A stretch of 64,000 nucleotides of DNA, from NCBI GenBank assembly GCA_017437755.1, contig JAFRXI010000010.1, forward strand, positions 52,464-116,463, in the 5' to 3' direction. Shown piece by piece: positions 27,965-47,427 of the stretch (within the stretch, counting starts at the first letter, position 1; every line of letters starts with the position of its first letter). This DNA comes from Bacteroidales bacterium (GTDB lineage: Bacteria; Bacteroidota; Bacteroidia; Bacteroidales; UBA932). Both the position numbers and the translations under genes were made by a program. The notes under the pieces were generated by a model. The model worked only from the letters and a program-made list of their open reading frames with translations, ran no database searches and was not told the origin of the DNA.

Positions 27965-27995
27965 TTGCTTGTTTAAACGATTTAGCATATATTTG
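27965..27995 (+). promoter_or_regulatory. Promoter with LacI-type operator (site 1) before the FG-GAP gene
   Basis: TTG at 27965-27967, a 20-base spacer and TATATTTG at 27988-27995. The operator TGTTTAAACGATTTAGCA (27970-27987) fills the spacer and abuts the -7 element, so a bound repressor would block polymerase. It shares TAAATCGTTT (reverse strand) with sites at 41871, 46307 and 47410. Confidence 0.75.
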
Positions 27996-28020
27996 CATTA
28001 ATTGGATAAACCACAATGAT

Positions 28021-29976
28021 ATGAACAAGCCCGGATCTTTTTTGACAGTATTTACGGCGTTGGCAATGCTCCCGTCAATTGGAGTACACGCAAAGGGCAA
28101 AGAGCTCCCTGAAGCTATTCCGATTGAATATGGTACCGATGCCACGGTAGCGCTGGGTGTCGGCCTTTGGGGTATTCCCCTCCCTACCGACTTTGATGGT
28201 GACGGGATTAACGACCTACTTGTATCATGCCCTGACAAACCGTATAATGGCATTTATTTCTTCCGCAACATAGGGACAAATTCCGATCCATTATTCGACA
28301 AGGCCGTAAAAGTCTATAAAAAAGGGCCCAACAATATCCGTGTCTGCACTTATGGCGATAAACAGCATGTCCTTGCAAAAGAAACGGAGTATCGTGGCTT
28401 TTTCGCCGGAAAGTTCCTAGGTGAACCGATCCCGATCCAATATGATGGAGAACGGCTCGGCGCCACGTATAACAGGTCCAGATCAAACATGTGGAATTAC
28501 ACCGACTGGGACGGCGACGGCGATGCTGACATCATTGTCGGGATTGACACCTGGGATGACTACGGCTGGGACAATGCATACAATGCAGAAGGCAAGTGGA
28601 CCAACGGTCCACTGCATGGATATGTCTATTTACTTGAGAATGTTAACGGCCAGTACATAAACAAGGGTAGGATAAAAGCAGGAGGCAAGGATATCGATAC
28701 ATTCGGAGCACCATGCCCATGCCTGGCAGACTTTGACGGAGACGGGCTTCAAGACATTATCTGCGGTGAATTCCTGGACGGACTGACATGGTTCAAAAAC
28801 GCCGGTACCTCCACTCAACCTGAATTCAAAGAGGGAAAGAGGCTGGCCAACAAAAATGGAGAAATACGTTTTCATATCGAGATGATAGTCCCGGTACCAT
28901 TCGACTTTGACAAGGACGGGCATATAGACCTTGTTGTCGGGGATGAAGACGGAACGGTTTCCTGGGTCCGTAATACAGGAAAGACGTGGAAAGGGATGCC
29001 TCTTTTCAACAACCCGGTCAGATTCAAGCAGAAAGCTGACCTGGTCAAATTCGGGGCCCTGGCCACACCATGCAGTTACGACTGGGACGGGGATGGAGAA
29101 GAAGACTTAATAACCGGGAACTCTGCCGGAGAAATCGCCTATATCCGCAACCTCGGCGGCGGAAAGTGGGACACTCCCGAATTGTTTACCGTCAAATGCA
29201 AGCCTTTCAGGATTATGGCTGGAGAAAACGGATCGATCCAGGGCCCTGCAGAACGCAAGTGGGGTTATACCGTCCTCAGCGTTGCTGACTGGGACGGAGA
29301 CGGGAAAGCAGACATCATCTTCAATTCCATCTGGGGAAAAGTCCAGTGGATGAAAGGGCTTGGCGGGACCAGACTTTCCTGGCCGAAGGATGTCAAGGTT
29401 GCCTGGGAGAGTGAAACACCCAAGGTGAAGTGGAACTGGTGGATTCCGGAAAAGGGAACCCTGGCCACACAATGGAGGACCACTCCGGTTGCAGTTGACT
29501 GGAATAAGGATGGCATGTGCGACCTAGTTACACTTGACCAGGAGGGATGGCTTTGCCTTTATGAGCGCCGGAAGGACGGGCTACTGAATCCGGGGAAACG
29601 GATTTTCTTCGGCACGAACGGATCGGTATACAATAATCGGAAAGGAATAACTGACACAACCCCGGGGCCTCTTCGGCTTAATGACATGGAAGCAGGCAAG
29701 TCCGGTCGAAGGAAGATTTGTTTTGCAGACTGGGACAATGACGGATATCAGGACCTGATCGTCGATGGTCCTTCAGCCGTATGGTGGCAGGGGAAGCCGG
29801 CTGCTGATGGACTGTACCTGCTTACTTATAAGGGAGACATGTCCAGTACGATACTGGAGGGACATACCACCTGCCCTACACCCGTAGACTGGAATCATGA
29901 CGGAACAGTTGATATTCTGCTTGGTGCCGAGGACGGCCATTTCTATCTGATAAAAAACATTAATCTGTCAGAATAA
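28021..29976 (+). CDS. Secreted FG-GAP/VCBS repeat protein of the PUL
   Basis: A 651-residue exported protein (signal ending SIGVHAKGK near residue 23) built from FG-GAP/VCBS-type beta-propeller repeats. Calcium-loop motifs of the DxDxDG type recur: DFDGDGINDL, DWDGDGDADI, DFDGDGLQDI, DFDKDGHIDL, DWDGDGEEDL, DWDGDGKADI, DWNKDGMCDL, DWDNDGYQDL and DWNHDGTVDI. That is about nine, enough for one or two propellers. Such proteins bind glycans, and some enzymes use the same scaffold; no catalytic signature is obvious here. It is on the opposite strand from the main PUL operon but carries the same LacI-type operator, so it is almost certainly co-regulated. Confidence 0.85.
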   Translation: MNKPGSFLTVFTALAMLPSIGVHAKGKELPEAIPIEYGTDATVALGVGLWGIPLPTDFDGDGINDLLVSCPDKPYNGIYFFRNIGTNSDPLFDKAVKVYKKGPNNIRVCTYGDKQHVLAKETEYRGFFAGKFLGEPIPIQYDGERLGATYNRSRSNMWNYTDWDGDGDADIIVGIDTWDDYGWDNAYNAEGKWTNGPLHGYVYLLENVNGQYINKGRIKAGGKDIDTFGAPCPCLADFDGDGLQDIICGEFLDGLTWFKNAGTSTQPEFKEGKRLANKNGEIRFHIEMIVPVPFDFDKDGHIDLVVGDEDGTVSWVRNTGKTWKGMPLFNNPVRFKQKADLVKFGALATPCSYDWDGDGEEDLITGNSAGEIAYIRNLGGGKWDTPELFTVKCKPFRIMAGENGSIQGPAERKWGYTVLSVADWDGDGKADIIFNSIWGKVQWMKGLGGTRLSWPKDVKVAWESETPKVKWNWWIPEKGTLATQWRTTPVAVDWNKDGMCDLVTLDQEGWLCLYERRKDGLLNPGKRIFFGTNGSVYNNRKGITDTTPGPLRLNDMEAGKSGRRKICFADWDNDGYQDLIVDGPSAVWWQGKPAADGLYLLTYKGDMSSTILEGHTTCPTPVDWNHDGTVDILLGAEDGHFYLIKNINLSE

Positions 29977-30050
29977 ATAATTGACAGATATTTGCAAATC
30001 AAAAAGATTTATACCATCTTTGCAATAGCTTTTTAGGAAGTTAGCATGCA

Positions 30051-30575
30051 CTACGGTGCGTTGCCCCGCAGGGAGGAGTTTTCCTCCCTGTTGTTTTTAT
30101 ATAGCAGATGTATTTCCCCTTTATCAAACAGCCAGACTTCACACAGTGGCGCCCTTAAATGCAATCGCGCCTGTACAAGCTTTTTGATATGACGGTCCGC
30201 AGCTCCCTTATTATTGTCAATGATAATATGTGACGACTGCCCCATTCCGTTTGAAAGCATCCTGGACACCTTCTTTTTGTTCCAGGGACGTACATAGCTT
30301 TCATATTCATAAAAGAGGCCGTCAATACTTAGATCAGGGCATTTTCTCCAGCACCTAGTCCCAATTAAATCCCCAAACACCATGTGATACAGTAGATCCT
30401 TATAATGAACAGGAGAAAGCACCTTGACCTCCTGTCCCCTGCATGCAAAGCGACATGCAATGGTCAGTATATCATGATAATCCGGTTTTGTTTTATCAAG
30501 ACCCTTCATCAACAGCACCTTACCTCCATTACCATACTCCCTGTAAATGGAAAAGCATTCATTCCCTACAATCAT
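30051..30575 (-). CDS. Putative CdiA C-terminal-like nuclease domain protein
   Basis: A 174-residue protein with no signal peptide. The second half has an arrangement like the CdiA C-terminal tRNA nuclease domain found on Bacteroidota mobile elements: CPDLSIDGLFYEYESY (an acidic strand pair), then basic KKVSRMLSNGMGQSSHIIID, then IKKLVQARLHLRAPLCEVWL and FDKGEIHLLY. Similarity is judged by eye and is only suggestive. It lies between two convergent PUL genes, looks lower in GC than they do, and has no partner immunity gene of the same strand nearby. It may be a passenger gene. Alternative: an uncharacterised PUL-linked protein. Confidence 0.5.
   Translation of the reverse strand: MIVGNECFSIYREYGNGGKVLLMKGLDKTKPDYHDILTIACRFACRGQEVKVLSPVHYKDLLYHMVFGDLIGTRCWRKCPDLSIDGLFYEYESYVRPWNKKKVSRMLSNGMGQSSHIIIDNNKGAADRHIKKLVQARLHLRAPLCEVWLFDKGEIHLLYKNNREENSSLRGNAP
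30069..30097 (+). terminator. Terminator of the FG-GAP gene, inside the end of a convergent gene
   Basis: CAGGGAGGA (30069-30077) pairs with TCCTCCCTG (30082-30090), then TTGTTTTT. It lies over the last codons of the minus-strand gene at 30051-30575. Confidence 0.7.
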
Positions 30576-30634: not shown

Positions 30635-32656
30635 CTATTTATATGGAATCTTGACAACCACCTTCCGGATATCAGAAGGAGCGTCAAAAGAAATACAGGG
30701 AGCGTGGGCGTCGGAAGGGAACAGTATTACCCAATGTCCAGGATCGGCCAGAAGTGAACGGCTGGAAACTGCGGACGCATGGAACTCGATGTCCTTTTTT
30801 GGATTATATGGTTTTATAGGTTCGCGTACTTCCGACAAGGGTGCAACTTTGATCAGTTCTTTTCCGGACAGGACGACCTGGACATCTATGTATTTGCGAT
30901 GGGCCTCATACTTGAATGACTCTTTGGTCACATATTCCTGGACATTTGCATACATACCGGATTCCGAAAGGTTGTAACGCCCCGTAGGAATGCCCATCAA
31001 ATCCTGACGCTGCAGGAATTCAGCCGCCACCTCCCATTCTGCAGGATTGGCCATAATCTGCCGCCTTAGTTGGGCCGTATCAGTCCCCGATGAAACCGGT
31101 AACGAGTCCCACATTTGCAATACCTTTTCAATCAACATGTTACGAAAGTTCTCAATCTTAACGAATGACATCATGTTTGAATCGTGCTGGCGTGTAGGGA
31201 GTCCCCTTGATTCAGGGGCCGCCACCCTTACCACGGCAGCGATATCCTCTCCGTCAAACACCCAGTCCGCATATTGGAAACCATGGAAAAACGGATCCGG
31301 ATCATACAGGACCGTACCAACCTCAATCCACTTGACAAGGTCACTGCTACATACCAAAACCAGGCGGTTGCGGATCAGGGAATGGGACATCCCCTTCACA
31401 TAAATACCCTGATGGGAATAATCACACGTGTCATCCGGATTTGTCAACGCCCAGTACATTTCACTGACGGGATCGAACCTCACTGTATACTTCTTCCCTC
31501 CTCCGGGCATTTCCACCCAATCGCAGGAAGGATCAAAGTAAAGACTGTCAATTCCCTTTACATGGAGCCTGGTGGCAAAACGGCTGGTTTGCGTACTGTT
31601 GGTACGGATCAGGTTGATTACTTCCCCATCCCGGGCCTCAACTATATTGCCTTCAATAAGGGATCCAGTCATCCTGTAGCCCATGATTGACAAAGCACCC
31701 TTTCCTACCGTATTTGTCCTGGTCCAGGAGGATGCTTCCAAAAGGTCGCTTCCAATGGGAGCGGAGACGACAAACGGGCTCTTGTCTTCGTAAGTCTCGC
31801 AGGCCCTCCAGATCCTCCCGCCACTGACAAGCATCGGAACGGGTGCAGTGTGATACACACCTTCCAGAATAAGTCCGGAATGGGCATCAACAGGTGAACT
31901 CCAGGTCATTCCCCCGTCAGACGAGCATGATATCCTCAACCCATTCCGGTCAGGTCCCACGCCCATAAAATAAACCTTGTCGCCAAGGGTAAAAAGGTTG
32001 TGATAATTGGATACCAGATTCTTCTTGACGTCATAGAAGCCGAATCGTTCCCATGTGGCGCCCTTGTCCACAGACCTGAACATCGCCGGTCCCTTGCCAA
32101 TCCCGGTACATGCAGCCAAATAACTCCCGTCAGGAAGCATAGTGATTGTCTGATTGTACGCACCGCCCTTTCTCAATATCGGGACTTTGGCAATCACGGT
32201 CCCGAATTCGGGAACACCGTCAACGGAAATAGAATCTCCGAACACGACAGCACTGTGAGTACACTCATCAGGATAAGGTATATCTGTCCAAACACCCGTC
32301 TTGATTCGGGGATTCTCGTAGACATAATAATCTATTCCAGCGACTTGGAAAACTTCTCCGGTCCGTACCCATGGCTTGGGTAACCTGCCGTCATAATCGA
32401 GGGCTATCCTGCACTTTGCATCCTTTCCGCAACATACCTTTTCCGGGCCACGGTACTCCATAAGGCTGACCGCAAACTTAGTCCCGGCAGGAAGGGCATT
32501 GCCGCATGCCGATTCGTTGTTCTGGGGAAAGAACTCCTTTTTAGGTCCGGCCTCCCTGATATCTATCAAGTCCCCGCGGACCAGTACTTCATCGGAGCGT
32601 TGCGCAACAGCCCCCAATGAAAGAACAAGCAAAACGACAGATAATAGCCAGCGCAT
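30635..32656 (-). CDS. Sialidase-like Asp-box protein fused to a YhcH/NanQ-type domain
   Basis: A 673-residue exported protein (signal ending LGAVAQRS near residue 19). Residues of about 20-500 form a sialidase-like beta-propeller with Asp boxes SVDKGATW (near 193) and SSDGGMTW (near 244). The last 165 or so residues are a YhcH/YjgK/YiaL domain (GRYNLSESGMYANVQEY, YEAHRKYIDVQVVLSGKELI, PSDAHAPCI). That domain is a metal-binding cupin; E. coli YhcH (NanQ) is known to speed anomer exchange of sialic acid. Here it is fused to, and exported with, the glycosidase-like part, which is unusual because YhcH proteins are normally cytoplasmic and separate. It is the last gene of the SusCD operon, five bases after the other Asp-box gene. 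The substrate is probably a 2-keto-3-deoxy sugar acid (inference). Confidence 0.85.
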   Translation of the reverse strand: MRWLLSVVLLVLSLGAVAQRSDEVLVRGDLIDIREAGPKKEFFPQNNESACGNALPAGTKFAVSLMEYRGPEKVCCGKDAKCRIALDYDGRLPKPWVRTGEVFQVAGIDYYVYENPRIKTGVWTDIPYPDECTHSAVVFGDSISVDGVPEFGTVIAKVPILRKGGAYNQTITMLPDGSYLAACTGIGKGPAMFRSVDKGATWERFGFYDVKKNLVSNYHNLFTLGDKVYFMGVGPDRNGLRISCSSDGGMTWSSPVDAHSGLILEGVYHTAPVPMLVSGGRIWRACETYEDKSPFVVSAPIGSDLLEASSWTRTNTVGKGALSIMGYRMTGSLIEGNIVEARDGEVINLIRTNSTQTSRFATRLHVKGIDSLYFDPSCDWVEMPGGGKKYTVRFDPVSEMYWALTNPDDTCDYSHQGIYVKGMSHSLIRNRLVLVCSSDLVKWIEVGTVLYDPDPFFHGFQYADWVFDGEDIAAVVRVAAPESRGLPTRQHDSNMMSFVKIENFRNMLIEKVLQMWDSLPVSSGTDTAQLRRQIMANPAEWEVAAEFLQRQDLMGIPTGRYNLSESGMYANVQEYVTKESFKYEAHRKYIDVQVVLSGKELIKVAPLSEVREPIKPYNPKKDIEFHASAVSSRSLLADPGHWVILFPSDAHAPCISFDAPSDIRKVVVKIPYK

Positions 32657-32661
32657 AGTAA

Positions 32662-34323
32662 CTACTTGTTTCTGAATTGATTTATCCTAATGAAAAGCAT
32701 CCTGTTGGCATCATGCTGACGGATTGGCAACCCATCAGCTTCCGGAATCGCGGTGCGTACGACAGCAATGATGTCATCACCGTCAATCACCCAGTCGGCA
32801 TACTGGAAACCATGGAAGAACGGATCGGGATCATAAAGGATCTTGTCGTCCACAGTTTTCCAATTCCTCAGGTCCGCCGACTTCAGCAGGACAAGCCTGT
32901 TGCGCATGAGACTGTGGCTCAGATTGCTGCCATCCATCCCCGCATGTGTAAGTTTGCCGTTTGCCGGATAGTCGGTGTCGGGATTAGTCAGAGCCCAGTA
33001 GCATTTGCTTACATCGTCATACCGGATAGTGAATTTCTTACCCCCGCCGGGGAAATCCACGCAGTACTTCTCGGGGGCAAATGCAAGCTGAGTGGTCCCG
33101 GTCACTTTCAAAAGGGTTCCAAAACCGCTGTTCTTGGTGCAATTGCTCCTCAGGAAATTGTAAACCGTTCCATCAGGACCGGCCAAAGCATTACCTTCTG
33201 TCAAGCCGGACACATTGACATTGCTTCCGGAAACATAGTATTTGGTGTCCCTGAAAATATTCGTCTGCTGCCAGCTTGACGACTTCAGGAAATCATTGGA
33301 AAGCGAAGCCGACAACATGAACGGGCATTTATCCACGTCGGCCGAGGCATAGAGTTCACAGGCCCTCCAGATCCTTCCCCCGGCAACTGCCACGGGCACG
33401 CTGGCGGAATGGAAGGTTCCTTCGAGTATCAGGCCGCTGTTCTTGTCAGAAGGGACCGACCAGGTCTTCCCATTGTCGGTGGACTTGCATATATATAGGT
33501 TCGCATGGCTCCCTCCAAGTCCCATCATATACAGTACCCCGTCATGGACAAAGAGATTGTACATGTTGGCTATCTTGTTGACAGACAAATTATAGGAACC
33601 GTATCGGGTCCATGTCAATCCCTTGTCGGAAGAGATGAAGAAGCGCGGTGAAGAATCTCCTTCGCTGCCGGTACATGATGCGAGGTAGTCTCCCGAAGGG
33701 GTTATGACCAGCGTGGCATTATTTATTTTAGACGTTGCCCGCGGCCCATCCGACCTGGTAATGACGGTCCCGTATTCCCTTGTTCCGTTTACCTTGACCT
33801 TGGGCCCTATGATCATCGGGGAACAAGTCTGCTTCCCGGGGCGAGGAACTTTGATTCCGGTTCTCTGGTCCCTGCCGGTATACCTGTGAAGATAATACGT
33901 CAGTTCCCCAACGCGGAACTGTCCCCCAGTAGATACCCAGTCGCCATCTTTAAGATCCTGAAACTCAGACGCCATGAAAACCGTAGCGGCCGAACCTGCC
34001 CTTACCCATTCCGGACCGTCCATGTCCACAAGGCCAACAGCGTACTGGGGATTCCCCCCGCACGCCAGCTTGGCATCAGCGCCGAAGGTATAGTTCTCGT
34101 TCTGTGGAAAAACTTGCAGTTCCTTTGTGTTATATACAGTACGGATATCGATCAGGTTTCCCCAAACCTGGATCTCATCGGACGGGAGGGAACCGATCCA
34201 TACGGGCTTTTCATCTGCAGGAACGGCAGGTTCATCATGGCCCCCGGGAACGCCTTCCCCGGAACAACCGGAGAAGGCGATCTGGGCCACAAAGACCAAC
34301 GCAAGGAGGTTAAGTATTCTCAT
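32662..34323 (-). CDS. Sialidase-like Asp-box lipoprotein
   Basis: A 553-residue lipoprotein (signal ending AFSGCSGEG, Cys near residue 19), homologous to the propeller part of the next gene. Asp boxes are SSDKGLTW and STDNGKTW; shared blocks include GGRIWRACE, FPGGGKKFTIRYDDVSKCYW, SHSLMRNRLVLL and DPDPFFHGFQYADWV. The Arg-Ile-Pro motif usual near the start of bacterial GH33 sialidases is not seen, so this is a divergent branch. It is likely a surface-exposed glycosidase or binding protein for the PUL's target glycan. It lies eight bases after the preceding lipoprotein gene. Confidence 0.82.
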   Translation of the reverse strand: MRILNLLALVFVAQIAFSGCSGEGVPGGHDEPAVPADEKPVWIGSLPSDEIQVWGNLIDIRTVYNTKELQVFPQNENYTFGADAKLACGGNPQYAVGLVDMDGPEWVRAGSAATVFMASEFQDLKDGDWVSTGGQFRVGELTYYLHRYTGRDQRTGIKVPRPGKQTCSPMIIGPKVKVNGTREYGTVITRSDGPRATSKINNATLVITPSGDYLASCTGSEGDSSPRFFISSDKGLTWTRYGSYNLSVNKIANMYNLFVHDGVLYMMGLGGSHANLYICKSTDNGKTWSVPSDKNSGLILEGTFHSASVPVAVAGGRIWRACELYASADVDKCPFMLSASLSNDFLKSSSWQQTNIFRDTKYYVSGSNVNVSGLTEGNALAGPDGTVYNFLRSNCTKNSGFGTLLKVTGTTQLAFAPEKYCVDFPGGGKKFTIRYDDVSKCYWALTNPDTDYPANGKLTHAGMDGSNLSHSLMRNRLVLLKSADLRNWKTVDDKILYDPDPFFHGFQYADWVIDGDDIIAVVRTAIPEADGLPIRQHDANRMLFIRINQFRNK

Positions 34324-36097: not shown

Positions 36098-36109
36098 GGC
36101 AATTGACAA

Positions 36110-37111: not shown

Positions 37112-37125
37112 AGCACTTCTCTTAT

Positions 37126-38721: not shown

Positions 38722-41700
38722 TTAGAAAGTGATGTTGATTCCACCTGTAAATATCCTGTTACGTGCATACGAGGAATAATCGAATCCTGGAGTAAGAGCC
38801 GAATGTCTGGTTGAAACCTCGGGATCGAGACCGGAATATGACGTAAGGGTGAATAGATTCTGACCGGAAATGAAAAGCCTCAGAGACTGGATCTTCAGCT
38901 TGGATGTGACAGAATAAGGGAAATTATAACCAAACTGGACAGTCTTCAGACGAAGGAATGAGCCGTCCTCCAAAGTCCTTGTGGAATACATTCCGGTAGG
39001 TCCCTGTCCTCCAATGCGGAAGTTCCTGCTGTCCGGGTTGTCCGGCGACCAGCGGTCGACATAGGACTTGTACTGGTTGATATTGCGGTTGGAGAAGTTA
39101 CCCTCGAACACGATCCTGTTTGCATTCATGATTTTGTTGCCATAGCTCCACTGGAAGAATATGTTCAGGTCGAAATTCTTCCAGGTAAAGGTATTGTTGA
39201 ATCCTCCTATATGGATAGGGGTTCCCCTGCCTATGACAACCATGTCACTCTCGTCTACGGTACCGTTCCCGTCAATATCCACATATTTGATGTCTCCGGG
39301 CTGGACGTTCGTATTCCCGTTGTTAGTAATCCCGTTCTTTAGTTTGTATGTTCCTGCCGGTGATACGTCAAAATCGTCGTACGTATAGACTCCGTCCCAG
39401 ACATAGCCATAGAAGGATGCTATCGGTTTCCCGACCTTTGCTATGTACAGGAATGAATTGTTAAAGTCACCGGTGAAGGTAACCTTGGAGAGCAGGGATT
39501 CTTCCCCCTCGGCCAGTTCAAGGACCTTGTCGCGATTGAAACTGATATTGAAATCACTGGTCCATATGAAGTTACGCGTCCTGACCGGGATGAAACTCAA
39601 GGTAAATTCCATTCCGTCATTCCGCACCTTGCCAACGTTCTTGTAAACGCTGCTATAGCCGCTTGAATACGGTACGTTGGCATTGAGCAACAGATTGCTG
39701 GTGATCTTTCGGTAAATGTCGAATACAAACCTTATTCGGTTGTCAAACAGGTTCAAATCCAGGCCGAGGTCCCATTGGGCAGTACTTTCCCATGTCAGTT
39801 CGTTATTGCCCAGGTTACTTTGCGTTATAGCCTCGGCTATGGAATTGCCCACTGCGTAATAATCTCCGATTACGACCGAGCCGTAGGCCGAGAAATCCTC
39901 CACACGGTTATTTCCCGTGACACCGTAACTGAGGCGCAGCTTGCCTTCGTCTATCCACGACAGTTTCTTCATGAATTCCTCCTCGCCGAATCTCCATGCA
40001 ATGGCAGCCGAAGGGAACAATCCCCAGCGATGGCCCTTGGTGAACTTGGATGATCCGTCCTCCCTGATGGAGGCCGTAAGCAGATAGCGTCCCTTGTACT
40101 GATAATTAGCCCTGGCGAGGAAAGACATCAGCCTGTTTTTCGACAATGTAACCGTTGTCGTTTCAGGCAGACCGTCATCCATTCCGCTGAGCCCCAGGCT
40201 CTCGTCAGGAACCTTGATTACGGTAAAACCATAATTGGAGGTTCCGGTACCCTGCATGGTAAAACCTCCCAGAAGGTCGATCTTGTGGTTCCCGAACTTC
40301 TTGTTCCAGCTGAGGGTATTCTCGTTTACCCAGCTCGTGACTATACGCTCGGAGAAGCCTCCGTTCACATCCTTGCTGTTATTCACCGATGAGTAACCCT
40401 GATAAGTCTTGGAATTGTAGAACGATTCTGAACGGCGTATCTTCTTGGTATACCCTCCCCTGATACTCAACTTGAGGTCCGGCAGGATATTGTATTCAAG
40501 GGTAGCATTCCCGAGGAAGTTGATAAAACGCTTGTTAATGAGTTCATTACTGTTTGAGATAACGGGATTCATGACGGTGTTGGCTATTCCCGCCGTGGCT
40601 ATATCGTCATCAAACAGGTCATCTACGTCCTGGGTGTCCAGAAGGAGCGGTTTGTAAGCCCAGGTCCGGTACATCAGATAAGTTTGATAGGAGTTGCTGG
40701 TGTTCAGCAGGGCCGAGGAGGTCTGACCGTATGTCTTATCTTCCGAGTACGATACGTTAGTCATCAGCCTGGCCCGCTTGGAAAGCTGCTGCTGCAAAGA
40801 CAACCTGGCCGAATACTTCTTGTAACCGGAATTAATGATGACACCCCTCTGGTCTACAAGGGAACCCGAAACCGAGTATTTGGTATCCCTGGTTCCGCCC
40901 AGCACTGAAATATTGTGCATGGTCATAAGGGCATTGCGGAACACACGGTCCTGCCAGTTGATCGTTTCCACATTGCGGTAATCTTCAAGTGTCATCCCGC
41001 GGCTGTCCAGATAAGTGTTGGCGGCTCCGGTATAACGCTGGAGCTGGTAATCCACAAACTCGTAAGCGTTCATCATATCCATCTTCCTGGTCGCTTGCTG
41101 CAGTCCCACCGAGCCTTCATAACTCACTACAGGCTTGCCAAGCTTGCCTTTCTTGGTTTCGATTATGATGACTCCATTGGCACCGCGCGAGCCATAAATC
41201 GCGGTTGATGAGGCATCCTTGAGAATGGTGATGGAAGCAATATCGCCCGTGGTGATGGCCGATGCGGAAAAATCTTCCAACGGGAACCCGTCCACCACAT
41301 AAAGCGGGGAATTGCTTTGGGTAAGGGAATTGGTTCCACGAATGACAATTTCCATATCCTGACCGGGCTGGCCATCGTTTGAAGAAACGGAAACACCGGC
41401 AATCCTACCCTGGAGAGCCTGGTCGAAAGAAACCACAGGAGCCTTGATGATGTCATCCATCTTGACACGGCTGAGCGTACCGGTTACGTCAACTATCCTT
41501 TGTTCTCCGTAACCGACCTCGACAACCGCCTCGTCAAGCATCATGGCATCGTCTTTCAAGATGAAATTTATCACAGTCCTGCCGGTAACCGGCTGCACTT
41601 CCGTTGCATATCCCAGCATGGAAGTTTCAAGAGTGGCATCCTTAGGAGCGTCGATGGTATAGGTTCCGTCTTCCGCGACCATTGCGCCCTTATTCGTTCC

Positions 41701-41859
41701 CTGAATAAAGACTATGGCTCCCGGAACAGGCTCCCCCTTTGCATCGACGACCTTTCCGGACACCTTGAAGTTCTGCGCAAAGGACACTCCCGAAGACAAC
41801 AGGATCGAGAATGTCCATACAAGCAGACAAGTTCCAAATGAAAGGTTGGATTGCTTCAT
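38722..41859 (-). CDS. SusC/RagA-family TonB-dependent outer-membrane transporter
   Basis: About 1045 residues. Signal peptide ending SGVSFAQNF, a carboxypeptidase-D-like regulatory domain (VSGKVVDAKGEPVPGAIVFI), a TonB-box region (LDEAVVEVGYGEQ), a plug with the SusC signature (GVSVSSNDGQPGQDMEIVIR, then IYGSRGANGVIIIETKKG) and a C-terminal beta barrel ending RNRIFTGGINITF. It imports oligosaccharides with energy from TonB/ExbBD. The start is set at 41859 because the upstream in-frame extension would contain the operator and lacks a signal peptide. It has its own operator (site 2) although it runs in the same direction as the catabolic operon before it. Confidence 0.94.
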   Translation of the reverse strand: MKQSNLSFGTCLLVWTFSILLSSGVSFAQNFKVSGKVVDAKGEPVPGAIVFIQGTNKGAMVAEDGTYTIDAPKDATLETSMLGYATEVQPVTGRTVINFILKDDAMMLDEAVVEVGYGEQRIVDVTGTLSRVKMDDIIKAPVVSFDQALQGRIAGVSVSSNDGQPGQDMEIVIRGTNSLTQSNSPLYVVDGFPLEDFSASAITTGDIASITILKDASSTAIYGSRGANGVIIIETKKGKLGKPVVSYEGSVGLQQATRKMDMMNAYEFVDYQLQRYTGAANTYLDSRGMTLEDYRNVETINWQDRVFRNALMTMHNISVLGGTRDTKYSVSGSLVDQRGVIINSGYKKYSARLSLQQQLSKRARLMTNVSYSEDKTYGQTSSALLNTSNSYQTYLMYRTWAYKPLLLDTQDVDDLFDDDIATAGIANTVMNPVISNSNELINKRFINFLGNATLEYNILPDLKLSIRGGYTKKIRRSESFYNSKTYQGYSSVNNSKDVNGGFSERIVTSWVNENTLSWNKKFGNHKIDLLGGFTMQGTGTSNYGFTVIKVPDESLGLSGMDDGLPETTTVTLSKNRLMSFLARANYQYKGRYLLTASIREDGSSKFTKGHRWGLFPSAAIAWRFGEEEFMKKLSWIDEGKLRLSYGVTGNNRVEDFSAYGSVVIGDYYAVGNSIAEAITQSNLGNNELTWESTAQWDLGLDLNLFDNRIRFVFDIYRKITSNLLLNANVPYSSGYSSVYKNVGKVRNDGMEFTLSFIPVRTRNFIWTSDFNISFNRDKVLELAEGEESLLSKVTFTGDFNNSFLYIAKVGKPIASFYGYVWDGVYTYDDFDVSPAGTYKLKNGITNNGNTNVQPGDIKYVDIDGNGTVDESDMVVIGRGTPIHIGGFNNTFTWKNFDLNIFFQWSYGNKIMNANRIVFEGNFSNRNINQYKSYVDRWSPDNPDSRNFRIGGQGPTGMYSTRTLEDGSFLRLKTVQFGYNFPYSVTSKLKIQSLRLFISGQNLFTLTSYSGLDPEVSTRHSALTPGFDYSSYARNRIFTGGINITF

Positions 41860-41870
41860 AATAATACTAT

Positions 41871-41888
41871 TGTTAAATCGTTTTAGCA
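41871..41888. promoter_or_regulatory. LacI-type operator, site 2, before susC
   Basis: TGTTAAATCGTTTTAGCA with central CG, identical at all 18 positions to site 3. It lies 12 bases before the susC start, in the 64-base gap after the mutarotase gene. A clear TAnnTTTG element was not found beside it. Confidence 0.75.
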
Positions 41889-41923
41889 TATAGAAAAACA
41901 ACTGGATTACATTATTAAACAGC

Positions 41924-42331
41924 TTATGCACAACCCACCGTAATAAGAAGGTTGGCGAATGTCCGTTTCTCTCCTGTGGCGATGGCCAGCCGGAGCGAGG
42001 GCTTCACACATTCATCGTAGAACCCGTACCTGTCCAGGCGCTTCAACTGCAGATCGGGAAGCATCGATGAAAATTCAGCGAAAACCTCGGGATCAGGTCC
42101 TTCAGAGGGGCTCATCACAGTTGCCTCCTCCACGTTGATTACCCCAAGGAGGGCATCCAGGACATCCGTTACGGTGGGCAGGCCCGGACTCAGCGAGACC
42201 CAGATCTTTTCCGCACCGGCCGTCTTGCTGACAAGAGGATAATTGCCGTCAGCAATCAGAATCCGGTCACCATGTCCCAGACGGCTTACCGCCGACAAGA
42301 TGCATGGATTTATACATTTACCTTTATTCAT
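41924..42331 (-). CDS. FucU/RbsD-family sugar mutarotase
   Basis: A 135-residue cytoplasmic protein of the RbsD/FucU family, which interconverts ring forms of sugars. It has the FucU-like signature LGHGDRILIADGNYP near residue 18 (catalytic His and Asp), and the conserved C-terminal block KRTFANLLITVG. Of the two family branches it looks closer to the L-fucose type. D-arabinose shares the C2-C4 stereochemistry of L-fucose and is handled by fucose enzymes in E. coli, which would suit a D-arabinose mutarotase here (inference). It overlaps the isomerase gene by four bases. Confidence 0.88.
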   Translation of the reverse strand: MNKGKCINPCILSAVSRLGHGDRILIADGNYPLVSKTAGAEKIWVSLSPGLPTVTDVLDALLGVINVEEATVMSPSEGPDPEVFAEFSSMLPDLQLKRLDRYGFYDECVKPSLRLAIATGEKRTFANLLITVGCA

Positions 42332-42942
42332 TTTTCATTCTCCCTTAATTCACCTAGTTTACCACCCGGATGACAGCGTACATACTTCTCGGGAGTCCAG
42401 TCATTCTGCACCTGAAGCACAACACTAAGAGCCTGAAGGACAAGCATTTCCGCATTCACCGAATTACGTGGCGCACGGTTGAGGGGGCCTCCCTCCTCTT
42501 TTACCGAAGCCAAAAGCGTACATTCCGAGTGCTTCGCCAGCCAGCTTTCAGGATTGCCGGTAACTGCAATCACCTTGCACCCGTTAGCATGCACGGCATT
42601 CACTGTTGCCTTGAGTTCCTGTGTTTCTCCGGAATTGGATATGGCTATCACCACATCTCCTGAAACAAGTTGGCCGCATGAACCGTGCACCGCCTCCGTT
42701 CCATGAAGGAAACAAGCCGGATTACCCGTAGATGACAGCAGCGAAGCCGCGTAAGCCGCCACATGTCCCGGCTTTCCTATGCCGGTAACGTGTATCCTGC
42801 CACAAGCGGCCTGAGACGCAAGGATCAGTTCGGCGGCAGCCCGGCAGGCAGCCGGATCAATGCCGTCAACAGACGAAGAGAAACTCTCTTTCGCCGAAAC
42901 GAGGAAAGCCTCAAGGGCCTTTATGCAACTGTCACGTATCAT
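42328..42942 (-). CDS. SIS-only KdsD-like arabinose-5-phosphate isomerase
   Basis: A 204-residue SIS-domain protein related to KdsD/KpsF/GutQ but lacking their C-terminal CBS pair. Family hallmarks are visible: GIGKPGHVA (Lys near residue 57), EAVHGSCG (His near 84), SNSGETQEL, PLNRAPRNS and the C-terminal HPGGKLGE. The last two match KdsD, which interconverts D-ribulose 5-phosphate and D-arabinose 5-phosphate, and its catalytic His is in the HPGG segment. CBS-free enzymes of this activity are known, including one from Bacteroides fragilis. In this operon it would run in the breakdown direction, arabinose 5-phosphate to ribulose 5-phosphate. It overlaps both neighbours by four bases. Confidence 0.85.
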   Translation of the reverse strand: MIRDSCIKALEAFLVSAKESFSSSVDGIDPAACRAAAELILASQAACGRIHVTGIGKPGHVAAYAASLLSSTGNPACFLHGTEAVHGSCGQLVSGDVVIAISNSGETQELKATVNAVHANGCKVIAVTGNPESWLAKHSECTLLASVKEEGGPLNRAPRNSVNAEMLVLQALSVVLQVQNDWTPEKYVRCHPGGKLGELRENEK

Positions 42943-43925
42943 TTCATTCCTGCGATTATTGTTTTATCCGCCCCTCTCTCCTCAATCAGCCTTTCCACCA
43001 TGTCGAGGGTTGGCAGGGACGGGATGGCGCCGTAACCGCAAACGGTTATCGCGGCAGCGTGCACTGCAAGTCCGATTGCGTTGTCAATGGAAAGGCCTGA
43101 AACGTACCCTGCAGAGAAAGTACCCACGAAGGAGTCGCCGGCAGCCGTGGGATCCTTGACATCAGGCATTCTGACGCAGGGGAACAGTTTGATTCCGTCT
43201 GCCGTACATAAAGCAGCCCCTCTGTCGCCAAGGGTAATTATAACATTATCAACCCCTTTACCCCTGAGGACTGCTGCCGCATCTTCAAGGGATTTGCCTG
43301 AAAGCCGCCCTTGGGCATCCGTCTGGATTCCGGAAAGGAAGGCAGCCTCAGTTTCATTGGGAGTAAGGAATGTGACACATGAAAGGAGCTCATCGGAAAG
43401 GGATGCTGCCGGGGCGGGATTCAGCATTAACGGGACACCGGCGTCACGGGAGAGACGTGCCACATAAAGGATGGTATCCATTCTGAGTTCCAACTGCATC
43501 ATTACCAAGTCGTAATCCCCAATCCCTTCCTCCAGCCATTCAAGGTCCGTTGGAAGAAGGTCATAGTTGGCTCCCGGGACCACTATTATCCGGTTCTGAA
43601 CGCCGGAAGCTCCCGCCTGCACCTCAATATGACCTACGCCGGAAGGATGGTCATGGCTGGTTTTGACATGGCGCGTGTCTGCGCCCGAAGACTCCACAAC
43701 GTAGAGCATCTCCTTTCCGAAAGAGTCGTCGCCCACGCAACCGGCCATGTCCACGGCCACTCCCAGCCTGGCAGCCTGCACGGCCTGGTTGGCTCCTTTT
43801 CCTCCGGGGGCCGTCTTGAAACAGCTTCCTATTACGGTTTCTCCAAGGTCCGGCGCCCTTTCAGCCAAGGCCACAAGGTCCATCACGAAGCTTCCTACTA
43901 CGAGAATTTTTGGTTTTTCATTCAT
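42939..43925 (-). CDS. Ribokinase-like PfkB sugar kinase
   Basis: A 328-residue PfkB kinase close to ribokinase: KILVVGSFVMDLVALAERAP at the start, TAPGGKGANQAVQAARLG near residue 38, NPAPAASLSDELL, TPNETEA and the catalytic DPTAAGDSFVGTFSAGY near residue 256. Ribokinases phosphorylate the terminal hydroxyl of pentoses. With a KdsD-like isomerase next to it the natural substrate could be D-arabinose, giving arabinose 5-phosphate (inference); ribose or a hexose cannot be excluded. It overlaps the symporter gene by eight bases and the isomerase gene by four, so translation is coupled. Confidence 0.88.
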   Translation of the reverse strand: MNEKPKILVVGSFVMDLVALAERAPDLGETVIGSCFKTAPGGKGANQAVQAARLGVAVDMAGCVGDDSFGKEMLYVVESSGADTRHVKTSHDHPSGVGHIEVQAGASGVQNRIIVVPGANYDLLPTDLEWLEEGIGDYDLVMMQLELRMDTILYVARLSRDAGVPLMLNPAPAASLSDELLSCVTFLTPNETEAAFLSGIQTDAQGRLSGKSLEDAAAVLRGKGVDNVIITLGDRGAALCTADGIKLFPCVRMPDVKDPTAAGDSFVGTFSAGYVSGLSIDNAIGLAVHAAAITVCGYGAIPSLPTLDMVERLIEERGADKTIIAGMK

Positions 43926-45372
43926 GTTTCTTGATTAGTTTGGAGAACAGGAAACCCACAAGGAATATGGTTGTGGTTCCAAATACAATGGTAAGATAGG
44001 TGTGGATGGGACTTCCGAAAACAGGAAGACTCATATAAGCAATTACGCAGAGGCCGAGCACGACAGCAATTATCGCCCCGGTACGGTTGGGCTTTTTGCA
44101 AACCAGCGAGAGCAGGAACAAACCCAGCATGCCACCGCTGAAGATGGAAGAGAGCTTCCACCAGGCATCCAGGACACCGTCGATGCTCATCATGGCCAGA
44201 CCGATCAGGATACCCATAACCCCCACCACTGCCGATGCGGTGTATAGCACCGCCATGTGGGATTTGCGCTCATCCACAGGTGAACTGCGGTGTATTTTCT
44301 TATAGAAATCGGTAAACACTATGGTAGCCGAAGAGTTTATGCTGGTAGCTACCGTGCTCATGCCCGCCGAGAACAGCGATGCTATCACAAGGCCGGTAAT
44401 GCCGGTTGGAAGACCGTGTACTATGAAATACGGGAAAACCTTGTCTCCTGTCACCCCTTCGGGCAGAAGTTCAGGACTTGCGGTATAATAGGAATAGAGC
44501 GCCGTTCCTATGTAGACGAATACCAATGACACAGGGATGTAGAGAAGTCCGCCGAACATGGTAGCCTTGACGGCTTCACCTGTGCTCCTGGCCGTCATAT
44601 ACCGTTGCACATAGTTCTGGTCTATGCCGTAGTTCTGCAAATTGATGAAAATGCCATAGATAAGCACCACCCAGACCGTAGGTTCCCTCAGCGTGATCCC
44701 AAGGCTCCCCAGGCTGAACTTGCCGTCCGAGGCGGCAATGCTGAACAGTTGTCCAGGGCCTTCCGGCATGCCGAAGGTCAGTATCAAGGCGCAGATGAGG
44801 GCGCCTGCGATCAGGATAATCCCCTGGATTGCGTCAGTCCAGACTACGGCGGAGATTCCACCGAGCACCGCATATATAAGCGTAAGGGCTCCTGTCACAA
44901 CTATGATGGTGGCTATATCCCAGCCAAACATCGTATTGATGGGAATGGCAAGGAGCAGCAGTATCGACCCAACCCGGCAAACCTGAGTGAGCAAATAGCA
45001 GATGGCTACATAGCAGCGGGCCCAGTAACCGTAGCGGTCTTCCAGGAACTGATAGGCGGAAACGCTGCCGACTCCCCTGTAAAGTGGGATGAACACCTTT
45101 GCTGCCAGCCAAGTGGCTATCGGGATGGTGAAACTGAAAATCAATTGGTTCCAGTTCCCAGCATAAGATCCTCCGGGAAGGCCCAGGAAGGAAATGCTGC
45201 TCACGAAGGTTGCGAAGATGGACATGCCCACCACCCACGCCGGAATGGTACCCTCAGCCTTGGTGAAAGCGTCGGTACCCTTGCTGCTCCTGCGGAAGAA
45301 ACTGCATCCGAAGAACGCCACTCCTCCCACAAAGATGAAGAAAATCAGATAGTCGAGCCAAGTTAGTTCCAT
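43918..45372 (-). CDS. Sodium:solute symporter (SSS family)
   Basis: A 484-residue inner-membrane transporter with about 13 hydrophobic helices. The SSS family features are clear: N-terminal DYLIFFIFVGGVAFFG, the sodium-site region MSIFATFVSSISFLGLPG and the signature-like ASLFSAGMSTVATSINSSAT. Members carry sugars, amino acids or sialic acids; sialic-acid carriers (SiaT type) are in this family. It sits between the aldolase and the kinase and so probably imports the monosaccharide released by the Asp-box enzymes. It overlaps the aldolase stop by one base. Confidence 0.9.
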   Translation of the reverse strand: MELTWLDYLIFFIFVGGVAFFGCSFFRRSSKGTDAFTKAEGTIPAWVVGMSIFATFVSSISFLGLPGGSYAGNWNQLIFSFTIPIATWLAAKVFIPLYRGVGSVSAYQFLEDRYGYWARCYVAICYLLTQVCRVGSILLLLAIPINTMFGWDIATIIVVTGALTLIYAVLGGISAVVWTDAIQGIILIAGALICALILTFGMPEGPGQLFSIAASDGKFSLGSLGITLREPTVWVVLIYGIFINLQNYGIDQNYVQRYMTARSTGEAVKATMFGGLLYIPVSLVFVYIGTALYSYYTASPELLPEGVTGDKVFPYFIVHGLPTGITGLVIASLFSAGMSTVATSINSSATIVFTDFYKKIHRSSPVDERKSHMAVLYTASAVVGVMGILIGLAMMSIDGVLDAWWKLSSIFSGGMLGLFLLSLVCKKPNRTGAIIAVVLGLCVIAYMSLPVFGSPIHTYLTIVFGTTTIFLVGFLFSKLIKKHE

Positions 45373-46277
45373 TATCTGTAATCATTCAGTGTTTCCAGTA
45401 TCGCCTCCACTTTCTTTTCCATTCCGGGGCCGAAAGCCGTATACGGAAGAAGCATATGGGAGGAGCATATTCCTTTCATCTTCAGGGCGCATTTTATCCC
45501 TTTGACGAAACTGGCGTCAGAACCGGGATCAAGCCCGTAGAGTGAACTGGAAAGCCGCATTATCTTTTTCTGGAAATCCCGGGCGGCAACCAAATCGCCT
45601 GCGGATGCCGCTTTGAAAGCTCCCACGAAGAGTTCCGGGAAGAGGTTTGCGCCACCGCTCACACCGCCGTCGGCGCCACATAGGACTGCCGGGACCATCT
45701 GTTCCTCCGGGCCCATGTAGACCGCGAAATCAGTCCCGGCAAAGTGATAGAGCAGGCTCTGGAAATAACCCTGGTTCCCCGACGAATCCTTCACGCCCAC
45801 TATATTGGGATGCCTGGACAGGGCAAGGACTGTATTGGCTTCCAGGAACACCTTTACCTTGGACGGCATATTATAAAGATATACCGGGAGAGGACACTCA
45901 TCAGCCAAAGCAGTGAACCAGTCAATGAGTTCATTCTGAGAAGCCGGGAAATAATAAGGTGCGGCGGCTACCACTCCAAAAGCACTGCATTCCTTTGCAC
46001 ACTGTGCCAGGTCCAGGCTGTCTTCAAGTGAAGTATCGGTTATTCCCACAAGTACCGGTACGCGACCTGCTATATATGAGCACATGTACTTGACAAAATC
46101 ATAGCGCAGCCGCACCGGCATGCTCTGGCTCTCCCCCGTGGTGCCAAGCAGGAAGATACCGGCAACTCCTGCCGCAATCATACGGTCAGCTATGATGCAT
46201 GCCCCTTTTTCGTCCAGGGTCACGGCATCAAGCATCGGGGTTATCATCGGAGGGATTATTCCCTGAATCTTTTTCAT
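45372..46277 (-). CDS. DapA/NanA-family class I aldolase
   Basis: A 301-residue TIM-barrel protein of the dihydrodipicolinate synthase/N-acetylneuraminate lyase family. Visible are the 2-keto-acid carboxylate motif GTTGESQS (near residue 45), the catalytic tyrosine in PVYLYNMPS (near 134) and the Schiff-base lysine in IVGVKDSSG (near 162). Family members split or join pyruvate and an aldehyde. Because it leads a sugar operon with kinase, isomerase and mutarotase, a lyase role on a 3-deoxy-2-keto sugar acid is more likely than lysine synthesis. Cleaving Kdo would give pyruvate and D-arabinose (inference). A LacI-type operator lies 29 bases before its start. Confidence 0.88.
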   Translation of the reverse strand: MKKIQGIIPPMITPMLDAVTLDEKGACIIADRMIAAGVAGIFLLGTTGESQSMPVRLRYDFVKYMCSYIAGRVPVLVGITDTSLEDSLDLAQCAKECSAFGVVAAAPYYFPASQNELIDWFTALADECPLPVYLYNMPSKVKVFLEANTVLALSRHPNIVGVKDSSGNQGYFQSLLYHFAGTDFAVYMGPEEQMVPAVLCGADGGVSGGANLFPELFVGAFKAASAGDLVAARDFQKKIMRLSSSLYGLDPGSDASFVKGIKCALKMKGICSSHMLLPYTAFGPGMEKKVEAILETLNDYR

Positions 46278-46306: not shown

Positions 46307-46324
46307 TGTTAAATCGTTTTAGCA
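46307..46324. promoter_or_regulatory. LacI-type operator, site 3, before the aldolase operon
   Basis: TGTTAAATCGTTTTAGCA, identical to site 2, in the leader of the aldolase-symporter-kinase-isomerase-mutarotase operon and just downstream of the lacI stop. Confidence 0.78.
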
Positions 46325-46362
46325 AGCGTGCGTGCAAAAAAATAAGTTCGATTTTTATGTTT

Positions 46363-47373
46363 CTATCCTGATATTTCCGGAGAGAGCACAATCTGCTCAA
46401 TAGGAACCTTCCGCCCAGGTCCTGACCGGATTCGGGCCATGATGAGTTCCATGGCCCTGGCCGCAAAAGAATCCACCGGCTGCCGGACGAATATGATGCC
46501 CGGAGCATAAATATCATAGAGCGGATTCCGGTCGAAACAGGCCACCTTGAAGTCATCCGGGATGTGATAACCATTCTTGTAGATTTCTGACATCACGAGC
46601 AAGGCCAGGGTATTGGTAGCCATCATAAAGGCATCCACTCCCCTCTCCCTGGCCGAACGGAAGTAGGAAGGGATGCTGTCGTAACTGTTGTGGGTTATCC
46701 TTTCTATATGGGTTTCGAATTCCGGGCCCGCCTCTTTGATTGCATCCAGGTATCCTTGCTCGCGGTCGCGGGTGTTGGAAATGTTCATCGAGTAGGATAC
46801 CATGTCGATGCGGCGGGCTCCACGGTCAAGAAGCTTCCGGGTGATGACACGGGCAGCCTCACGGTTGTCCAGCACCACGCTGCTAACCTGGAGACCAGGA
46901 ACCTCACGGTCCAACAAAACCGTGTCGACTCCGGAACCCACAACCTTTCGGATGGCATCCTCGGAACCGGCGCACGGCACCAGTATAAGACCGTCGACAC
47001 CTTTGTTCAGAAGCACGTCGACAACCCTTCCAAACTTTTCCGGATTCTCGTCCGAACTACCGAAGATCACATTATAACCATATTTGTAGGCCTGGTCTTC
47101 CAGGTCCCTTGCGATCTCGGCGAAGAAAGGATTGGCTATGTCGGAAACAACCACCCCGATGGTGAGGGTCTTTCCGGAACGAAGGGCCCTGGCTGTATTG
47201 TTGGGCTTGTATTGCAGGCGCTCGGCCACTTCCATCACGCGTCTGGCAGTATCTTCACCGACCCGGTACACCGGCTCCCCTGCCACCTGGTTAGACATCA
47301 CAAAGGACACCAAAGTGGTGGAGACTCCAGCCTCTTTTGCTATATCCTTAATTGTAACCGAACTCTTAGCCAT
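46363..47373 (-). CDS. LacI-family regulator of the PUL
   Basis: A 336-residue LacI/GalR-type repressor: N-terminal HTH (VTIKDIAKEAGVSTTLVSFV), hinge helix (NNTARALRSGKT, near residue 57) and a periplasmic-binding-protein-like sensor domain (TIGVVVSDIANPFFAEIARD). It lies directly upstream of the aldolase operon, and its own promoter carries the same type of palindrome, so it probably represses itself, the catabolic operon, susC and the FG-GAP gene. The effector should be the sugar or an early intermediate. LacI control of a SusCD locus is less usual than hybrid two-component or ECF-sigma control. Confidence 0.92.
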   Translation of the reverse strand: MAKSSVTIKDIAKEAGVSTTLVSFVMSNQVAGEPVYRVGEDTARRVMEVAERLQYKPNNTARALRSGKTLTIGVVVSDIANPFFAEIARDLEDQAYKYGYNVIFGSSDENPEKFGRVVDVLLNKGVDGLILVPCAGSEDAIRKVVGSGVDTVLLDREVPGLQVSSVVLDNREAARVITRKLLDRGARRIDMVSYSMNISNTRDREQGYLDAIKEAGPEFETHIERITHNSYDSIPSYFRSARERGVDAFMMATNTLALLVMSEIYKNGYHIPDDFKVACFDRNPLYDIYAPGIIFVRQPVDSFAARAMELIMARIRSGPGRKVPIEQIVLSPEISG

Positions 47374-47402
47374 ATCCGTCCTGTGCCAGAAGTAACTCGA
47401 GA

Positions 47403-47427
47403 CAAATATAGCTAAATCGTTTTAATA
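47403..47427 (-). promoter_or_regulatory. lacI promoter with operator site 4
   Basis: On the minus strand TATATTTG (47403-47410) is preceded at once by the operator core; plus-strand AGCTAAATCGTTTTAATA at 47410-47427. The operator touches the -7 element as at site 1, consistent with autorepression. Confidence 0.72.

Follow-up and report, generated by a model that had tools for sequence, protein, structure and literature searches.

Gene content of the locus

We have analysed a 64 kb stretch of DNA from a Bacteroidales bacterium (G000:C37:52464-116463, hereafter the window, from a genome of 2.88 Mb that is 84.9% complete) that carries a predicted locus for the utilisation of 3-deoxy-D-manno-octulosonate (Kdo). 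An earlier note on this DNA had described an aldolase, an SSS symporter, a ribokinase-like kinase, a SIS isomerase, an RbsD/FucU protein, SusC and SusD, two lipoproteins and two Asp-box proteins, and all of them are present in the window. To this list we add a lacI gene, a YhcH/NanQ domain at the C-terminus of the second Asp-box protein and, on the plus strand, a gene for an FG-GAP repeat protein. The adjacent susC and susD genes that mark a polysaccharide utilisation locus (PUL) were recognised through Pfam for SusD and through homology and reading of the sequence for SusC. From the aldolase gene through rbsD the genes overlap at all four junctions (by 1, 8, 4 and 4 bases). The features found, including the copies of a 13-base operator-like motif, are the following:

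27973..27985, minus strand: operator-like site upstream of the FG-GAP gene, exact match to YTAAATCGTTTWA
28021..29976, plus strand: FG-GAP repeat protein, N-terminus signal-like, a candidate partner outside the cell or in the periplasm (PF13517, E 9.8e-32; 17 of the 99 aldolase loci have a homologue; operator-like site upstream)
30635..32656, minus strand: Asp-box protein ending in a YhcH/NanQ (DUF386) domain, candidate hydrolase for the release of Kdo, and anomerase (PF04074, 2.9e-34; weak BNR_2 match under the cut-off)
32662..34323, minus strand: Asp-box protein (BNR_2, 5.8e-5, under the cut-off; 47% identity in alignment to the 30635..32656 protein)
34331..36109, minus strand: DUF5017 lipoprotein, candidate surface glycan binder (PF16409, 1.1e-31)
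36110..37132, minus strand: DUF5017 lipoprotein (PF16409, 1.2e-33)
37126..38709, minus strand: SusD (PF14322, PF07980)
38722..41931, minus strand: SusC (translation, sequence and homology to SusC of related loci)
41873..41885, plus strand: operator-like site between rbsD and susC, exact motif match
41924..42331, minus strand: RbsD/FucU mutarotase, predicted for D-arabinose (PF05025, 7e-30)
42328..42942, minus strand: SIS-only KdsD-like isomerase, predicted to convert arabinose 5-phosphate to ribulose 5-phosphate (PF01380; KdsD residues conserved)
42939..43925, minus strand: ribokinase-like PfkB kinase, predicted D-arabinose 5-kinase (PF00294; D_ribokin_bact 284.4 bits)
43918..45372, minus strand: SSS sodium:solute symporter, predicted Kdo importer (PF00474; TIGR00813 222.4 bits, above the cut-off of 184)
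45372..46277, minus strand: NanA/DapA-fold aldolase, predicted Kdo aldolase (PF00701; active-site comparison)
46309..46321, plus strand: operator-like site upstream of the aldolase gene, exact motif match
46363..47373, minus strand: LacI-family regulator (PF00356, PF00532)
47412..47424, plus strand: operator-like site upstream of lacI, exact motif match
47459..48646, minus strand: WbsX-family protein, possible member (PF14307; operator-like motif absent upstream)

With its mechanically assigned GTG start, susC overlaps rbsD; the true start is probably the ATG at 41859, which leaves a gap between the two genes with an operator-like site inside it. The five-gene cassette, which the earlier note had suggested looking for in other genomes, was found in order in a genome from a second genus (G1038, L161) of the same family, where the whole arrangement lacI-aldolase-SSS-kinase-SIS-rbsD-susC-susD-DUF5017-DUF5017 is identical and the aldolase is 78% identical to that of the window. 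Two Asp-box proteins and a SASA esterase are encoded further along in G1038 (L183).

The aldolase

The window aldolase belongs to the N-acetylneuraminate lyase/dihydrodipicolinate synthase (NAL/DHDPS) fold family (PF00701, 187 bits), and the Schiff-base lysine (Lys163) and catalytic tyrosine (Tyr135) are conserved in 100 of 100 aligned aldolases, the window protein included. It scores below the NanA equivalog cut-offs (87.7 against 382 bits and 101.6 against 281) and below that of DapA (179.6 against 206.15 bits). The arginine that follows the YNxP motif, which has a role in DapA after YNVP, is found in only 4 of the 100 sequences, and the window protein has a lysine there. Its G189-x-E191-E192 stretch resembles the GYDE motif of NanA (E191 is present in 99 and E192 in 93 of the 100), and the genome's own DapA has GNDDD in place of this GxEE-type motif. 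The genome has three PF00701 matches, of which one reads as the housekeeping DapA and another is weak (32 bits), so that the window aldolase is its likeliest NAL. An aromatic residue precedes the column of E. coli NanA F252 (90 of the 100 sequences), near V251 of that enzyme, where bulkier residues lead to less Neu5Ac cleavage and a higher ratio for L-Kdo (PMC4016182) and so speak for a substrate of eight carbons. NALs form Kdo from D-arabinose (PMC4016182), and Kdo is split both by NanA of E. coli and by the human enzyme NPL (PMC13220900).

The nearest match in PDB is 4xky (E 5.8e-79), labelled as a dihydrodipicolinate synthase (DapA). This protein, from B. thetaiotaomicron, scores about as high as members of the aldolase group and its label may be wrong; our literature search found no paper behind the entry. 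A quick tree placed the window and L161 aldolases together (SH-aLRT 98), within a set of six rows (SH-aLRT 97) that also includes L030 and L031 (both FucI-linked), L032 and L162. L030 contains the best match (63%) of the search that gave 80 of the aldolase loci described below and is a contig of a Lentisphaeria metagenome-assembled genome with SSS and FucI genes, a case of either transfer or misbinning.

D-arabinose genes in the related aldolase loci

We have collected 105 loci containing related aldolases (80 + 11 + 14), of which 99 remained, the window excluded, once six same-contig duplicates were dropped. Matches of neighbouring genes were scored at E 1e-10, and absence counts are weak, many contigs being short and the loci being cut at about 3 to 21 kb. 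The E. coli FucI protein has a match in 23 of these loci, in 20 of them at about 300 bits or more and in L048, L051 and L077 at just 77-100 bits. A kinase of the AraB type (16 loci) or FGGY type (4) was found in 20; FucI and kinase come together in 12 loci, FucI only in 11, the kinase only in 8 and neither in 68. Representatives pass the specific cut-offs, as is the case of the kinases of L041 and L068 for ribulokinase (NF003154, 700 and 685 bits against 428), of the L091 kinase for FGGY pentulose kinase (691 against 409) and of L044 and L055 for FucI. AraA, AraD, XylA, RhaA, RhaB, FucA, FucK, NanE and NanK have no match in any of the 99 loci. A FucP-like gene appears in L082 and L092, and a RbsK-like kinase in L161 and L174.

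FucI plus ribulokinase is the textbook route of D-arabinose degradation, and its presence beside the aldolase points to D-arabinose as the product; D-arabinose plus pyruvate corresponds to Kdo or an epimer. In L034 the FucI gene is located between SSS and SusC, the position that the kinase-SIS-RbsD genes have in the window, and the LacI, FG-GAP, SusC, SusD and DUF5017 proteins of both loci are homologous. The gene content, its conservation, this swap of the D-arabinose module and the shared operator-like motif can be read directly from the DNA. That the aldolase releases D-arabinose is well supported. Two other sugars were discarded. L-fucose as the product was rejected for the lack of FucA and FucK matches in the 99 loci, which have ribulokinase-type kinases instead, and to our knowledge no isomerase of the arabinose 5-phosphate type acts on fucose. 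L-arabinose, suggested by the AraB-type kinases, was rejected for the lack of AraA and AraD matches in the same loci.

Within the family of the window's organism the aldolase was found in 15 of 398 genomes. Five of them have FucI in the fetched stretch (G402, G953, G1033, G1097 and G1136), three have kinase-SIS (the window genome, G1038 and G1137) and seven showed neither module. FucI was not found in the window's genome. Proteins with a DUF6786 domain recur near D-arabinose genes (L034:4614-5750, L204:14836-16056 and L206:10287-11498) and possibly have a mutarotase or other D-arabinose function.

The kinase, SIS isomerase and RbsD/FucU protein

The SIS protein matches SIS models alone (PF01380 and, more weakly, SIS_2) and has no CBS domain. 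Residues K57, H86, E109, E150 and H191 align with K59, H88, E111, E152 and H193 of E. coli KdsD, its catalytic positions. The KpsF/GutQ model TIGR00393, which spans more than the SIS domain, gave 130.7 bits against a cut-off of 203.7. The protein has in common with the KdsD, GutQ and KpsF isomerases the SIS domain and all five compared residues, and it differs from them in lacking CBS domains and in being located in a degradation operon, in a genus nearly devoid of kdsA and kdsB. The kinase falls narrowly below the ribokinase equivalog cut-off (TIGR02152, 284.4 against 299.65 bits) and has a valine at the position of N14 of RbsK. The third protein belongs to the RbsD/FucU family (PF05025, 104.7 bits against a gathering score of 25), and scores under both the D-ribose pyranase and the L-fucose mutarotase equivalog cut-offs.

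Counting that of the window, 8 of the 396 genomes of the family have an orthologue of the SIS-only protein. Identity is 71-85% in the remaining seven, whose frames have 206-214 codons except in G1038 (253 codons). Among the other matches listed, identity does not exceed 41% and most frames have 320 to 400 codons, and KdsD matches elsewhere in the family and order are about 30-43% identical and mostly longer. The kinase gene adjoins the SIS-only orthologue in all eight genomes. The aldolase is present in three of them (the window's, G1038 and G1137), an overlap with p = 0.002 by count that, like all our co-occurrence counts, ignores the relatedness of the genomes. The other five (75 to 96% complete), presumably part of the sample searched, gave no aldolase match at 1e-40.

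Four of these five genomes have GH172 and/or GH183 genes, families of D-arabinan hydrolases. DUF2961/GH172 was found in L202, L204 and L205 (by Pfam in L202 and L204, by homology otherwise) and DUF4185/GH183 in L202, L205 and L206 (by Pfam in L202, by homology otherwise). FucP, above the TIGR00885 cut-off and below that of NF007524, is present in L204 and L206, and in L207 none of GH172, GH183 and FucP was found. L202, L204, L205 and L206 are apparently D-arabinan utilisation loci of uncultured relatives with an arabinose 5-phosphate route. They have the kinase-SIS pair in common with the window and differ in the source of the D-arabinose, which is hydrolysis of D-arabinan by GH172/GH183 in one case and the predicted aldolase reaction in the other. 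The D-arabinan PUL42 of Dysgonomonas gadei also degrades D-arabinose and has a predicted fucose isomerase (PMC10115798). Judging by these neighbourhoods, both D-arabinose modules appear to occur with both D-arabinose sources. The neighbourhood of the SIS-only isomerase of E. coli CFT073 is a phosphotransferase system (PTS)-type gene set with no aldolase.

The presence of kinase-SIS in D-arabinan loci where no aldolase match was found could mean that the window has two unrelated modules, with kinase-SIS-RbsD acting on external D-arabinose (for instance from D-arabinan) and the aldolase and symporter on another keto-acid such as KDG; that 68 of the 99 aldolase loci have no D-arabinose gene would also fit. 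We find this very improbable, since in two genera the kinase-SIS-RbsD genes are embedded, with overlapping ends, between SSS and susC, and the non-homologous FucI route is found at the same place in relatives. Furthermore, GH172, GH183 and FucP have no relative in the window, which leaves the aldolase as the visible source of D-arabinose there.

Sialic acid as the alternative substrate

The NanA fold, the SSS symporter, the Asp-box proteins and the NanQ-type domain are all typical of sialic acid loci, and the aldolase might be a lyase of N-acetylneuraminate (Neu5Ac) or Kdn, with the kinase and isomerase acting on something else. NanA cleaves Neu5Ac, Kdn and Kdo (PMC13220900), and the genome that has the window aldolase as its likeliest NAL also codes for two NanE-type proteins. 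A NanA-fold aldolase, an importer, Asp-box proteins and a domain of the YhcH/NanQ type, all for a 3-deoxy-ulosonic acid, are common to the locus, the nan operon (E. coli nanATEKQ, L110) and the nan loci of Bacteroidota. In contrast to the nan systems, the locus has a kinase, an isomerase of the arabinose 5-phosphate type and a mutarotase predicted to act on a pentose, and neither NanE and NanK nor an equivalent N-acetylmannosamine (ManNAc) route was found among the 487 reading frames of the window, which also has no relative of NagA or NagB. Among the 99 aldolase loci nagA and nagB were found once, both in L080, and nanE never; kdsB also appears once, in L085. The recurrence of the kinase-SIS pair beside D-arabinan hydrolases argues in the same direction, and we know of no role on ManNAc or mannose for either FucI plus ribulokinase or kinase plus SIS.

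The earlier argument against ordinary sialic acid, the absence of ManNAc epimerase, NagA and NagB, thus holds true for the window and does not extend to the whole genome, given the two NanE-type genes elsewhere. The neighbouring genes speak against sialic acid or Kdn being mainly used; on account of the two NanE-type genes we keep this as a quite unlikely alternative to Kdo. An AGE-type epimerase gene is also present in the genome and was not counted for sialic acid because it adjoins genes that read by eye as mannan-type (L190). In the same region (L190:2127-4135, G000:C27) a gene that reads by eye as a NeuB-like synthase adjoins another that reads as a CMP-sugar synthetase and has a part resembling KdsC (78.9 bits), and the organism may make a nonulosonic acid.

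Kdo biosynthesis genes

Among 61 genomes of the genus (25 of them with a completeness of 90% or more and a contamination of 5% or less), kdsA was found above the cut-off in one and kdsB in one, the same genome (G1147) in both cases. The window's genome has neither above the cut-off. At E 0.001 the kdsA model has weak matches in 46 of the 61 (including the one above the cut-off; the next strongest, in G1199, has 121 bits), mostly in longer frames that look like related DAHP-type synthases. As a positive control, kdsA was above the cut-off in 14 of 25 aldolase carriers (Alistipes and Dysgonomonas are among the 14, and two have an in-frame stop); none of the six carriers from the family of the window's organism has it above the cut-off. 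We rejected biosynthesis as the role of the SIS protein because kdsA and kdsB are nearly missing above the cut-off from the genus and do not pass it in the window's genome. This near-absence would mean that the genus has a Kdo-free lipopolysaccharide or no lipopolysaccharide.

Possible sources of Kdo and candidate releasing enzymes

Some relatives of the aldolase are found in what appear to be loci for rhamnogalacturonan II (RG-II), the plant polysaccharide whose sugars include Kdo and Dha (PMC7939467). In Dysgonomonas (L054-L056) the aldolase and FucI genes are found among those of GH28, GH88-family, GH95, GH140 and GH78 proteins; the assignment is by domain scan for L055 and for a single protein of L056, and by homology for the others. 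The GH140 protein of L055 matches 3kzs/5msy at 1.4e-221 and its neighbour matches 6goc at 2.8e-146, which is BT1017, a methylesterase of RG-II (PMC7939467). Homologues of genes from the B. thetaiotaomicron RG-II loci described there surround the Dysgonomonas genes, and the window lacks any RG-II enzyme used as a probe. Over the 99 aldolase loci GH106 and GH28 were found in 9 each and GH140 in 5. Sulfatase matches were found in 8, so that other glycans are likely for some relatives. For the window's own organism RG-II, one of the sources proposed in the earlier note, finds no support, there being in the window no GH140, GH78, GH106, GH28, GH95 or GH105 relative of the probes.

All the evidence for D-arabinose would fit equally well a relative of Kdo, such as its C4 epimer or a methylated or otherwise substituted Kdo, and substituted forms are plausible because some relatives of the aldolase are found among sulfatases (L019, L068 and L084). 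However, Kdo is the common natural 3-deoxy-octulosonate and is contained in RG-II, the context of L054-L056. We regard a relative as unlikely and Kdo itself as the most likely substrate.

GH33 sialidases are characterized by an Asp-box propeller, an Arg triad, a Tyr/Glu and an Asp. The Asp-box profile retrieves from PDB not only sialidases but sortilins and xyloglucanases too, in most cases over a short stretch. The FG-GAP family profile had no PDB match at 1e-5, and we can only guess at a role of this protein in the locus from its co-occurrence in 17 of the 99 loci, the motif and domain fusions. Reading the alignment by eye, FG-GAP is fused to a BNR-type domain in L083:5685-8633 and to an esterase-like domain in L036:7103-9922 and L044:2079-4874.

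A shared operator-like motif

The 13-base motif YTAAATCGTTTWA was scanned across the 64 kb with up to one mismatch. Four sites were found, all exact and all inside the locus (the mean in shuffled sequences was 0.21 and none of 100 shuffles reached four), a count that is partly post hoc because the motif was first spotted by eye in some upstream regions; the susC site is outside the regions read at that time. The outer two sites nearly coincide with the ends of the interval given in the earlier note (27965..47427). The FG-GAP gene at 28021 seems to be tied into the locus by this shared motif. The gene order also recurs in L161, and the gene set is more than chance.

The motif recurs before lacI in L161, and in L166, L169 and L171 before the lacI, aldolase or ribulokinase gene. 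A palindromic variant was found in all seven Alistipes loci scanned (L034, L036, L040, L041, L042, L047 and L048), and in the D-arabinan loci L202 and L205 a copy is located 38 and 33 bases upstream of the kinase gene, respectively. With up to one mismatch, L162, L164, L165, L183 and L203 have no site. The recurrence is suggestive only because operators of the LacI type have a common core.

The proposed pathway

We consider it highly probable that this is a Kdo utilisation locus, in which Kdo is split to pyruvate and D-arabinose and the latter converted through arabinose 5-phosphate to ribulose 5-phosphate. From the gene content we infer the enzymatic activities, the transport and hydrolase steps and the regulation as follows. 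A Kdo-bearing glycan would be taken up by SusC/SusD with the DUF5017 lipoproteins, the Asp-box proteins, perhaps assisted by the FG-GAP protein, would release Kdo, and the YhcH/NanQ-type domain would equilibrate the Kdo anomers. After import by the SSS symporter, the aldolase would split Kdo to pyruvate and D-arabinose, whose ring forms the RbsD/FucU protein would interconvert. The ribokinase-like kinase would then produce D-arabinose 5-phosphate, which the SIS isomerase would convert to D-ribulose 5-phosphate, an intermediate of the pentose phosphate pathway. The LacI protein would control the regulon via the four operator-like sites. The core of this scheme, a ulosonic acid split to pyruvate and D-arabinose that continues to ribulose 5-phosphate, had been put forward in the earlier note and gains support from FucI plus ribulokinase as a positional substitute, from kinase-SIS in D-arabinan loci with no aldolase match, from the RG-II-type loci and from the near-absence of Kdo biosynthesis genes.

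Several observations weigh against Kdo utilisation. FucI was not seen in 76 of the 99 aldolase loci, and in 68 neither FucI nor the kinase; many of these contigs are short, but some are long, so that the aldolase family at large may act on other 3-deoxy-ulosonates. L032 has LacI-aldolase-SSS-RbsD, without kinase or SIS. The aldolase and the SIS-kinase pair come together in just three genomes, and in G1137 they are about 20 kb apart. The BNR_2 scores of the two Asp-box proteins (23.0 and 21.7 bits) are below the Pfam cut-off of 31.4. The two NanE-type genes elsewhere in the genome and the promiscuity of the NAL fold (the E. coli enzyme NanA accepts Neu5Ac and Kdn and, to a lesser extent, Kdo; PMC13220900) belong here too. 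The match between V251 of E. coli NanA and the aromatic residue of the aldolases hinges on gap placement, MAFFT having aligned V251 elsewhere.

Kdo is present in most Gram-negative lipopolysaccharides and in the RG-II of plants, so that guts and soils receive a constant supply of it. Among 5.39 million open papers, preprints and most subscription papers being outside the search, none contains "Kdo utilization", "Kdo degradation", "Kdo catabolism" or a similar phrase (six in all), nor the name "3-deoxy-D-manno-octulosonate aldolase". The window aldolase would carry out the reaction of Kdo aldolase (EC 4.1.2.23), as predicted from its neighbours. A survey of 2007 rated EC 4.1.2.23 as an orphan activity ("difficult"; PMC1940265), and if our prediction is true it gains its first dedicated candidate gene. 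In addition, the arabinose 5-phosphate isomerases would gain a degradative role, the DapA-family proteins near FucI in Alistipes, Dysgonomonas and Balneolaceae would be explained, and the locus would offer candidate Kdo-releasing enzymes. This bacterium of gut type seems not to make Kdo, and it carries a set of genes apparently for importing Kdo and using it as food.

In a more ambitious picture, a gene would for the first time be assigned to a dedicated Kdo aldolase, D-arabinose would be processed by either of two unrelated modules that can replace each other (FucI with ribulokinase, or the ribokinase-like kinase with the SIS isomerase), the FG-GAP propeller family and the YhcH-fused Asp-box proteins would form an undescribed Kdo-releasing machinery, and Bacteroidales that do not make Kdo would use it to eat that of plant RG-II or of other bacteria. 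We offer it tentatively and doubt, on balance, that all its parts hold at once.

Other genes in the window

A reading frame of 174 codons at 30051-30575, within the locus, has no Pfam match. Upstream and outside of the locus, a HipA-like kinase and a Fic-family protein are encoded at 13499-14641 and 17247-18356.

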